Source: Spirulina major PCC 6313 (GTDB lineage Bacteria > Cyanobacteriota > Cyanobacteriia > Cyanobacteriales > Spirulinaceae). Taken from it: a DNA stretch of 64,000 nt. Location: assembly GCF_001890765.1 (NCBI RefSeq), contig NZ_KV878783.1:2942771-3006770 (forward strand), read 5' to 3'. Every line of letters starts with the position of its first letter. Positions within the stretch are counted from its first letter, which is position 1. Positions 33,423 through 35,236 of the stretch are shown piece after piece. The notes below the pieces were generated by a model, which had not been told where the DNA came from, searched no databases, and worked only from the letters and a program-made list of their open reading frames with translations. The translations under genes were made by a program, and so were the position numbers.

Positions 33423-33704
33423 CTAGACTAAGGATGCGATCGCCGCCGCCAGACTAAAGTCTTTTTCAGTCAACCCACCCGCATCATGGGTCGAGAGACT
33501 GACCGTCACTTTATTATAAGAAATACTGAGATCCGGGTGATGTCCCGCTGACTCCGCCGGTTCAACCAGACGATTGACAAAATCAATCGCAGTTACAAAG
33601 TCTTGAAACACAAACGTTCTTTGGATCGTATTTTCAACCTGTTGCCAATCGGGAAGCGTCTTCAGGTGCTCTGTGATTGCTGCACTATGTAATAACGATG
33701 CCAT
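33423..33704 (-). CDS. pterin-4a-carbinolamine dehydratase
   Basis: A 93-residue enzyme that dehydrates 4a-hydroxytetrahydropterin. The family motif PAESAGHHPDLSISYNKVTVSLSTHDAGGLT carries the catalytic His pair and the THDAGGLT signature. The start is set at ATG 33704 (MASLLHS), while TTG 33719 would add five residues. It is single and on the same strand as the porin. In cyanobacteria these small proteins recycle pterins, perhaps tied to cofactor or quinone pathways. Confidence 0.9.
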   Translation of the reverse strand: MASLLHSAAITEHLKTLPDWQQVENTIQRTFVFQDFVTAIDFVNRLVEPAESAGHHPDLSISYNKVTVSLSTHDAGGLTEKDFSLAAAIASLV

Positions 33705-33740
33705 AGGATATTTACTCAAAAACTACGCCAAATACTATCC

Positions 33741-33787
33741 GCTCCCACAGGGCGTATGCTTCCAGGAAACATATCAATTGTGGGAGC
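33741..33787. repeat. inverted repeat GCTCCCACA / TGTGGGAGC
   Basis: A 9-bp stem separated by 29 bases, upstream of the pterin dehydratase start. A second small hairpin, ATTGATAG / CTATCAAT, is at 33841-33862, just past the 23-residue ORF. Both could be RNA structures of the leader. Confidence 0.5.
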
Positions 33788-33864
33788 GGTCTAGAGGGTC
33801 TTCGTATGCTGTCATTCTGACTGCTGGAAGGAACTCTGGGATTGATAGACCGTGCTATCAATGA

Positions 33865-33936
33865 CTAGAGAACAGCCCCAGCGCACAGCCGATGATTTTC
33901 AGCGTGAAGACCCATGCATTTACTACTATCACTCAT
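33865..33936 (-). CDS. candidate 23-residue peptide gene
   Basis: An ORF starting MSDSSKCMG and ending LCAGAVL, 23 codons. It is preceded by the near-perfect ribosome site AAGGAGG (33945-33951), eight bases before ATG 33936 (an ATG two codons earlier is also possible). The stop is followed at once by a hairpin. It contains two Cys and two His, no membrane span and no signal peptide. It lies between psbD's terminator and the pterin dehydratase gene, on the same strand. It may be a small protein or a translated leader (attenuator-like) of the downstream gene. No homologue was recognised. The call rests on the ribosome site and the position. Confidence 0.45.
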   Translation of the reverse strand: MSDSSKCMGLHAENHRLCAGAVL

Positions 33937-34087
33937 GGGCATCACCTCCTTAAATCCTGTTAGGGTTAGTTTCAAAATGAACTTATGGATAAGGTAGCAC
34001 AAATTTTTAGTTTGGGAAGGGGGTCGTGCGATTAATCTCGTGATCTCTCCTTCTCTCAACCTATCTGTGCTTTCTATTGCCAAACAC

Positions 34088-34180: not shown

Positions 34181-35236
34181 CTAGAGAGCGTTACCGCGAG
34201 GCAGCACTTCTTCAGGGAAGATGAAGCGTTCGTGGGGTTGATCTTGCGGAGCCATCCAGGCCCGCATCCCTTCGTTGAGCAGAATGTTCTTGGTGTAGAA
34301 CGTCTCAAATTCAGGGTCTTCGGCGGCGCGGATTTCTTGGGAGACGAAATCATACGCCCGCAGGTTTAAGGCGAGGCCAACGATGCCAATGGAACTCATC
34401 CACAGGCCCGTGACGGGGACAAACAGCATGAAGAAGTGCAACCACCGTTTGTTAGAAAACGCAATTCCGAAGATTTGGCTCCAGAATCGGTTGGCGGTTA
34501 CCATGCTGTAGGTTTCTTCCGATTGGGTCGGGGTGAAGGCGCGGAAGGTGTTCGCTTGGTCGCTGTCTTCAAAGAGGGTGTTTTCTACCGTGGCTCCGTG
34601 GATGGCGCAGAGTAATGCACCCCCCAGAATCCCGGCAACTCCCATCATGTGGAAGGGGTTTAACGTCCAGTTGTGGAACCCTTGCAGGAACAGGATGAAC
34701 CGGAAAATCCCCGCAACCCCGAAACTGGGGGCGAAGAACCAACTGGATTGTCCTAAGGGGTACATCAAGAAGACGCTGACGAATACGGCGATCGGACCAC
34801 TGAAGGCGATCGCATTGTAGGGACGAATCCCCACGAGGCGTGCAATTTCAAACTGACGCAGCATGAAGCCGATCAGCCCAAATGCGCCGTGGAGCGCCAC
34901 GAAGGGCCACAGTCCGCCGATTTGGAACCAACGGGTGAGGCTCCACTGGGCTTCGGGTCCCCAGAGGAACAGCAGGGAGTGACCGAAGGCATCGGCGGGC
35001 GATGACACGGCGACGGTGATGAAGTTGCAGCCTTCGAGGTAGCTCGATGCCAGTCCGTGGGTGTACCAGGAGGTGACGAAGGTGGTGCCGGTCAGCCAGC
35101 CGCCCAGGGCCATGTAGGCGCAGGGGAACAGCAGCAAACCAGACCATCCGATGAAGACGAAGCGATCGCGTTTGAGCCAGTCATCGACTGAGTCAAACCA
35201 GCCTCGCTCTTGTGTTCTTCCAACAGCTATGGTCAT
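34181..35236 (-). CDS. psbD: photosystem II D2 protein, stand-alone copy
   Basis: A 351-residue thylakoid protein and one half of the PSII reaction centre core with D1. The sequence is essentially canonical: N-terminus [21 protein letters not shown], quinone and iron site regions, the segment [23 protein letters not shown] and C-terminus [15 protein letters not shown]. In most cyanobacteria the first psbD copy overlaps psbC. Here no psbC follows: the stop is succeeded by a terminator and a non-photosynthetic gene. This is therefore probably the monocistronic psbD2-type copy, often induced by high light. A -10 like TATACT lies at 35317-35322, about 80 bases upstream of the start. Confidence 0.97.

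Follow-up and report, generated by a model that had tools for sequence, protein, structure and literature searches.

A 23-codon open reading frame (ORF) lying between psbD and a pterin dehydratase gene in Spirulina major appears to be part of a translated, structured RNA of about 255 nt, whose fold would be opened by the ribosome and whose peptide may be mostly a by-product. We give this reading a probability of about 0.5. Since the ORF lies inside a folded RNA gene with start and end signals of its own, the act of translation probably matters more than the peptide. To judge from its recurrence in relatives, the reading frame is real and very old, and the RNA is putatively transcribed and translated in Spirulina major. 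The first-pass annotation had proposed a small gene with possibly important Cys and His codons, or a translated leader of the dehydratase gene; the small gene was supported, the leader and the Cys/His role were not, and the annotation missed that the ORF forms one arm of a covarying RNA.

The reading frame and its probable transcription unit

The window is the whole 64,000-nt stretch of DNA that was analysed. On its minus strand AAGGAGG (33951-33945) is followed, after 8 bases, by ATG (33936-33934) and 23 codons that include two Cys and two His, exactly as first described, and the hairpin said to follow the stop directly is present as TTGATAG...CTATCAA (33861-33842). The placement of the ORF between the psbD terminator and the dehydratase gene was borne out by Pfam and by a terminator-like stem: the upstream neighbour is psbD (34181-35236; PF00124, E 1.4e-71) and the downstream neighbour is pterin-4a-carbinolamine dehydratase (PF01329, E 6.4e-32). 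The features are as follows, where A1 is an alignment of 65 diverse cyanobacterial loci from 69 chosen references (L004, L011, L113 and L116 were omitted, mostly for odd length).

34124-34090: terminator-like stem of psbD
33990-34001, minus: extended -10 promoter-like element TGTGCTACCTTA, recognised by motif
33956-33965, minus: 5' box CCCTAACAGG (CCGNYYAGG in the family consensus), shared by many of the cyanobacterial sequences in A1
33941-33951, minus: ribosome site AAGGAGGTGAT, 11 bases, from sequence
33910-33940, minus: possible start-codon hairpin H1, GCCCA (33940-33936) with UGGGU (33914-33910), loop GAUAGUAGUAAA
33865-33936, minus: 23-codon ORF for the peptide MSDSSKCMGLHAENHRLCAGAVL, stop TAG at 33867-33865, by direct reading
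33868-33906, minus: codons 11-23, 5' arm of the long hairpin (helices 2-4 of A1)
33842-33861, minus: variable apical hairpin just after the stop, with no sequence conservation in A1
33796-33836, minus: 3' arm GAGTTCCTTCCAGCAGTC...GAAGACCC, a conserved block of the 3' untranslated region (3'UTR), from covariation with the ORF
33730-33794, minus: terminator stem-loop CTAGACCGCTCCCACA...TGTGGGAGCGGATAG followed by TATTT, from sequence

The ribosome site extends beyond the AAGGAGG noted earlier to the 11-base AAGGAGGTGAT, all of which is presumably complementary to the 3' end of the 16S rRNA. It has a single exact match in the window; if one mismatch is allowed there are four, where 1.14 would be expected and 3 of 100 shuffled sequences give four or more. 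The earlier claim that so strong a site would be rare by chance is upheld because the site recurs in relatives, where the segment with the Shine-Dalgarno (SD) site and the ORF is matched in 55 of 59 genomes. GGAGGTGATGC is invariant across the 65 rows of A1, an invariance partly built in, as the rows were chosen partly by the ribosome-site motif. Among the loci found with the RNA model, variants are GGGAGG in L219 and L220 and GGAGGTGGTG in L216; in L219 and L220 the spacing is longer and the remaining RNA highly conserved.

In 63 of 173 loci a motif resembling TGTGCTATCTTA, with no more than 2 mismatches, stands between 20 and 110 nt ahead of the SD, where mononucleotide shuffles predict 1.25 such loci, with the limit that the motif was picked after inspection of a few of the same loci and that the 173 loci are related. 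The transcript would start at about 33983 and end at about 33727, which gives the RNA of about 255 nt. The 3' half of the terminator, GCGGAT[AG]G[CT], is present in 145 of 158 loci; the other 13 include Pseudanabaena-like loci with a different end hairpin and one locus cut by a contig end. Overall, the element has the look of an RNA unit with transcription and termination of its own, the promoter and terminator that mark a coding sRNA being present here as sequence motifs. The terminator stem CTAGACCGC...GCGGATAG with its T run (window 33735-33794) is constant across very distant cyanobacteria, which is unusual for an intrinsic terminator.

Distribution in cyanobacteria and probable identity with ncl0160

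With the whole intergenic region as query, and E values up to 1 admitted, 58 of 59 relatives gave a match. The segment with the SD and the ORF (query about 225-310) reached E 5.6e-7 or better in the 55 genomes mentioned, covering only its first 40 or so bases in G018 and G025, and was absent in G010, G027, G035 and G054; a second block further downstream was also matched in many of the 59. With the core alone and an E limit of 0.01, blastn matched 120 of the 386 genomes from the phylum, and a covariance model (R1) found 138 of 386 at E up to 1. Strong R1 matches (E 1.6e-13 or better) were obtained in 119 genomes, of which 98 belong to the 105 listed for the same family and order and 21 lie elsewhere in the class; among the matches listed, no genome has a second strong one. 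The 19 weaker matches (E 6.5e-4 to 0.8) were excluded from the counts; one of them, in G276, is by eye an ordinary gene start. R1 gave no match in 7 of the 105 listed genomes of the order, and no strong match either in family f41 (genomes of 1.6-3.0 Mb, which we guess to be picocyanobacteria) or in the genomes related at the level of the phylum only, which we guess to be non-photosynthetic. If the RNA was secondarily lost in f41, the loss would inform on its function.

A pattern scan of named-species genomes gave at least 117 stretches; among the 80 matches listed, 73 are from cyanobacteria, 6 from Chloroflexota and 1 from Phycisphaerales. The last (L058; 7 codons, MRQSSLR) was judged a chance match. 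Nostoc, Scytonema, Pseudanabaena, Leptolyngbya and Thermosynechococcus are among the matches listed, and the RNA spans heterocystous and non-heterocystous cyanobacteria, as expected of the sRNA ncl0160. A loose pattern gave 41 matches in viral contigs, none resembling the element by ORF and sequence. Rfam release 15 gave no match at gathering score in the window and none in 33700-34080 at E up to 10; scans at gathering threshold returned only seven tRNAs from 10 related loci and nothing from 14 further loci. Since the RNA is found in nearly all sampled genomes of the order and many of the class, and has relatives in Chloroflexota, it must be very old.

The ncl0160 sRNA of cyanobacteria is reportedly due to Mitschke in 2011. 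The cyanobacterial family described here is very probably ncl0160, matched by description (ORF length, ribosome site and stops) to the portions consulted of Brenes-Alvarez 2016 (PMC4734099), where 83 homologues have a predicted peptide of 23-25 aa and always a ribosome site, and where the RNA is judged likely translated and widely conserved in cyanobacteria. The stops are 47 TAA, 34 TAG and 2 TGA there and 104, 69 and 2 here, where 170 of 175 cores have 23-24 codons; a few GTG starts are reported there, whereas our search required ATG (PMC4734099). In those portions the account gives a predicted secondary structure, without covariation between coding sequence and 3'UTR or relatives outside cyanobacteria (PMC4734099), and in the open-access literature searched we found neither that covariation nor Chloroflexota relatives whose frame can pair with the ribosome site. 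No other paper naming ncl0160, and no function for this RNA, was found in that literature, and the RNA matched no Rfam family. The part consulted of a Synechocystis table of proteins of up to 50 aa (PMC5126843) has no entry below 26 aa, and the sections consulted of PMC3610870, PMC5386190 and PMC5521070 contain nothing on the element.

Tests for selection on the reading frame and on the peptide

The 175 distinct cores were selected for SD, ATG, TGGG and the 3' block, and ORF length and frame were left free; loci without an exact SD, ATG or TGGG (e.g. L213, L214, L216, L219, L220, L076) stand outside this set. The ORF has 23 codons in 154 cores, 24 in 16 and 17 in 5, and ends in TAA (104), TAG (69) or TGA (2). 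The distance from ATG to TGGG is 22, 25 or 31 (160, 8 and 7 cores) and always in frame. The constancy of the ATG is circular because the search required it, while the frame test is fair for the pattern-scan loci because their spacing from ATG to AGTAGT was free from 6 to 12. The idea of an unannotated small gene gains from this, as frame, start, ribosome site and stop recur; the first-pass annotation held that indels other than multiples of three would speak against the gene, and none was found, all 15 length variants before codon 9 being in frame.

Comparisons between neighbours among 130 distinct 23-codon ORFs gave 140 synonymous changes in this frame against 104 expected, and 101 against 113 and 78 against 102 in the other two frames. 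Only the paired half carries the excess (111 against 75), which may come partly from wobble pairing; codons 2-8, with 29 synonymous changes where 29.0 are expected, show no amino-acid constraint. No nonsense change was seen, against only 2.0 expected. In relatives, frame and ribosome site recur and synonymous changes exceed expectation, as the annotation had looked for, and the Cys/His set is not conserved. Cys7 occurs in 28 of the 130 ORFs, His at codon 11 in 4, and His at codon 15 is not among the eight commonest residues there; Cys18 alone is common, in 94 of 130, with Arg, Trp or Ser in its place elsewhere and a stop in some lineages. A metal site is therefore unlikely, and a Cys/His metal peptide was set aside on residue conservation in the 130 ORFs.

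Leu17 is present in all 130 ORFs. Ser4 and Ser5 are AGT AGT as nucleotides in 128 and 129 of them, counts that are partly circular because some loci were picked for AGTAGT, just as Gly9 was required by the search; L215 and L231 have AGC AGT. In Thermosynechococcus and relatives (L063, L136, L217, L218, L221) a stop at codon 18 leaves a 17-codon ORF, as in one further genome (L216). In L015, L080 and L154 Gly20 has become Glu and the pairing partner has changed as well; in L096 and L146 Glu stands without a matching partner change. Taken together, the evidence from frame, synonymous changes and truncation suggests that translation is probably selected and the amino-acid sequence only weakly so. 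By eye, the complementary stretches persist in the five 17-codon loci.

Covariation between the coding sequence and the 3'UTR

In the consensus of A1, codons 11-23 pair with the conserved 3'UTR block. The consensus has 31 pairs, and the 17 with compensatory double changes all fall in the three coding/3'UTR helices (helices 2-4, 26 pairs, 17 changed on both sides). There are 138 double-change cells against 40.6 +/- 6.9 in shuffles (0 of 500) and 5-21 in slid controls. A duplex test on the 150 distinct loci with anchor, out of 175, found coding/3'UTR complementarity at no more than 3 of 60 shuffles in 143, including the window locus (L032; 1 of 60); no signal came from the Thermosynechococcus-like L217, for which 43 of 60 shuffles did as well. 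As copies of the window locus, L002 was dropped and L032 was dropped in some counts. The predicted fold of the whole RNA has -82.3 kcal/mol (z -2.25), a value matched by 5 of 200 shuffles.

Complementarity between the ribosome site and the ORF was above chance in none of the 150 cyanobacterial loci. Support for the candidate start hairpin H1 is weak; it is paired in 99.7% of the cells of A1, has zero double changes and did not pass that complementarity test. An alternative helix, P1 (GGGUC/GACCC), competes with the start hairpin GCCCA/UGGGU. In the 78 distinct loci that remained of the 175 (16 were without anchor and 5 without CCC), the mean P1 stem is 5.69 against 5.40 in partner shuffles, with 7 of 2000 as good. 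The signal is weaker in the six loci with a changed GGGUC (116 of 2000 shuffles as good; L215 and L011, which were misanchored, scored only 3 by eye). Matched changes GGGUU/AACCC occur in L106, L004 and L005, and in L154, which has GGGUU, a stem of ten pairs is preserved. The statistical support for P1 as a whole is modest.

Relatives in Chloroflexota

The exact SD-ATG-AGTAGT arrangement is present in 6 of 251 Chloroflexota genomes (reversed control 0); if 2 mismatches are tolerated, it is present in 15 of 151 (control 2). AAGGAGGTGATGCNNATG was located 40 times, in 39 of 251 genomes (control 0). Of these occurrences 30 were retrieved. An ORF of 13-21 codons is present in 26, L276 is related to L240 but has lost the stop, and L271, L272 and L275 are other genes or doubtful. 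Peptides such as MGSSKRMGVTAGEAR share SSKRMG with the cyanobacterial ones, and the loci share the upstream box CCGNYYAGG(C), which in the closest relatives reads GCCGNYCAGGC. The C-termini differ, and the layout of the ORF is kept with other sequences. On the upstream box, the ribosome site, SSKRMG and the layout, these loci appear to be recognisable relatives of the cyanobacterial RNA.

Pairing was studied in 34 distinct Chloroflexota loci with an exact SD and 12-24 codons (L151 and L162 were assigned by similarity). The coding region is complementary to the ribosome site, at no more than 10 of 200 mononucleotide shuffles, in all 34 and, at the same level, to the 3'UTR in 23. Therefore, the middle of the coding region (e.g. 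GGGCAUCACC) can pair with the ribosome site or, in most loci, with the 3' arm, and the ribosome site may stay hidden before the 3' arm is synthesised. At least 5 predicted pairs enclose the stop in 34 of 34 loci, modestly above the 28.3 in shuffles, and at least 10 do so in 32 of 34 against 21.3. In L240 and L241 the stop codon sits at a hairpin apex, within a GUAA tetraloop in the first and within CUAA in the second; in L256 and L276 the stop is lost and the ORF extended.

Proposed mechanism and related systems

The favoured scheme can be potentially described as follows. Ribosomes would load on the free SD site of the 23-codon ORF, translate into the hairpin, unfold it and finish at its apex, the stop codon being positioned at the start of the apical loop. 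Their passage would expose the 3' arm (UUCCUUCC/UUCCUCCC...GGCAGUC), and the RNA would have a closed, untranslated and an open, translated state, one of them the useful output, most plausibly regulation in trans by the freed 3' arm. As ribosomes would open the hairpin while reading, translation would thus set the fold of an independent RNA. If it does, the RNA would be a simple sensor of ribosome activity in photosynthetic bacteria.

A wider proposal, possible and no firmer than that, is that Cyanobacteria and Chloroflexota share a single ancient family of ribosome-responsive RNA switches. The middle of the ORF (13-24 codons) would pair with its own ribosome site in the off state and with the 3' untranslated arm when the ribosome site is free; the stop would lie in the hairpin apex, and the exposed 3' arm would be the means by which ribosome traffic signals translational capacity. 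GCCCA/UGGGU and GGGUC/GACCC would be the cyanobacterial alternatives. Against the favoured scheme stands that in cyanobacteria the pairing of ribosome site and ORF is above chance in 0 of 150 loci, so translation is not obviously switched there.

Several known systems resemble parts of this RNA. SgrS and RNAIII are coding (dual-function) sRNAs, in which a short ORF likewise lies inside an independently transcribed, terminated and structured RNA, but here the coding sequence is itself an arm of the main conserved helix. In the type I toxin mRNAs hok and AapA1 metastable folds mask the ribosome site, and the Chloroflexota coding regions, which can pair with the ribosome site or (23 of 34) with the 3' part, likewise offer competing folds. 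However, the peptides here are short, polar by inspection and poorly conserved rather than hydrophobic toxins, and the ribosome-site pairing is not seen in cyanobacteria (0 of 150). Leader-peptide attenuators also combine a short ORF, competing hairpins and an intrinsic terminator, but no constant gene lies downstream here.

Alternative explanations and gene neighbourhood

The main rival, which we hold to be possible but doubtful, is that a conserved micropeptide, M-x-[D/E]-S-S-K-x-[M/L]-G-...-R-L-x-A-G-A-V-L, is the product and that the RNA fold tunes its expression or stability. The in-frame length variants, the synonymous excess specific to the frame, the strong ribosome site and the SSKRMG shared by the peptides of both phyla agree with it, and Leu17 (130 of 130), Ser4 (128) and Ser5 (129) also fit a peptide function and so speak against the peptide as a by-product. 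However, codons 2-8 are without amino-acid constraint and their AGT AGT is fixed as nucleotides (in part through the selection of loci), the last six residues are absent in Thermosynechococcus-like lineages, Chloroflexota lengths range over 13-21 with differing C-termini, and Gly20 changes to Glu together with its partner in three loci (though without it in two). A Pfam search with the 23-mer gave no match, which is weak evidence at this length. That the RNA is instead an untranslated structured sRNA, its ORF an accident of conserved sequence, would suit the strong covariation and the first listing of the family as an sRNA (ncl0160, in the portions consulted of PMC4734099). We consider it unlikely, as length varies in frame only with all three stop codons in use, the synonymous excess is confined to one frame, and Chloroflexota keep the same plan with other sequences.

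The translated leader or attenuator of the dehydratase gene suggested by the first-pass annotation is the least probable reading, a very improbable one largely refuted by gene order. A same-strand dehydratase lies within 1500 nt downstream in 85 of the 140 loci long enough to tell, and the terminator sits between ORF and dehydratase, both as a leader would have it. Yet 55 loci lack the gene there, and 15 of these have an antiparallel first ORF (at least 75 aa; first ORFs were called mechanically and some antiparallel ones may be spurious). When the next ORFs were clustered, 84 of 163 loci had the dehydratase and 30 a porin-like gene (the name given by eye), and among the six confirmed Chloroflexota loci the stretches that were read enter different genes, as judged by eye. 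The RNA is probably not a dehydratase leader because it has a promoter motif and terminator of its own and an inconstant downstream gene. Upstream, clustering gives psbD in 47 of 114 loci, and a psbD homology search finds the end of that gene within 1000 nt in 43 of 96. At the psbD of the window the order is small RNA and then dehydratase, psbC not being next, and in many relatives a contig starts or stops within this copy of psbD, as would fit a duplicated gene.
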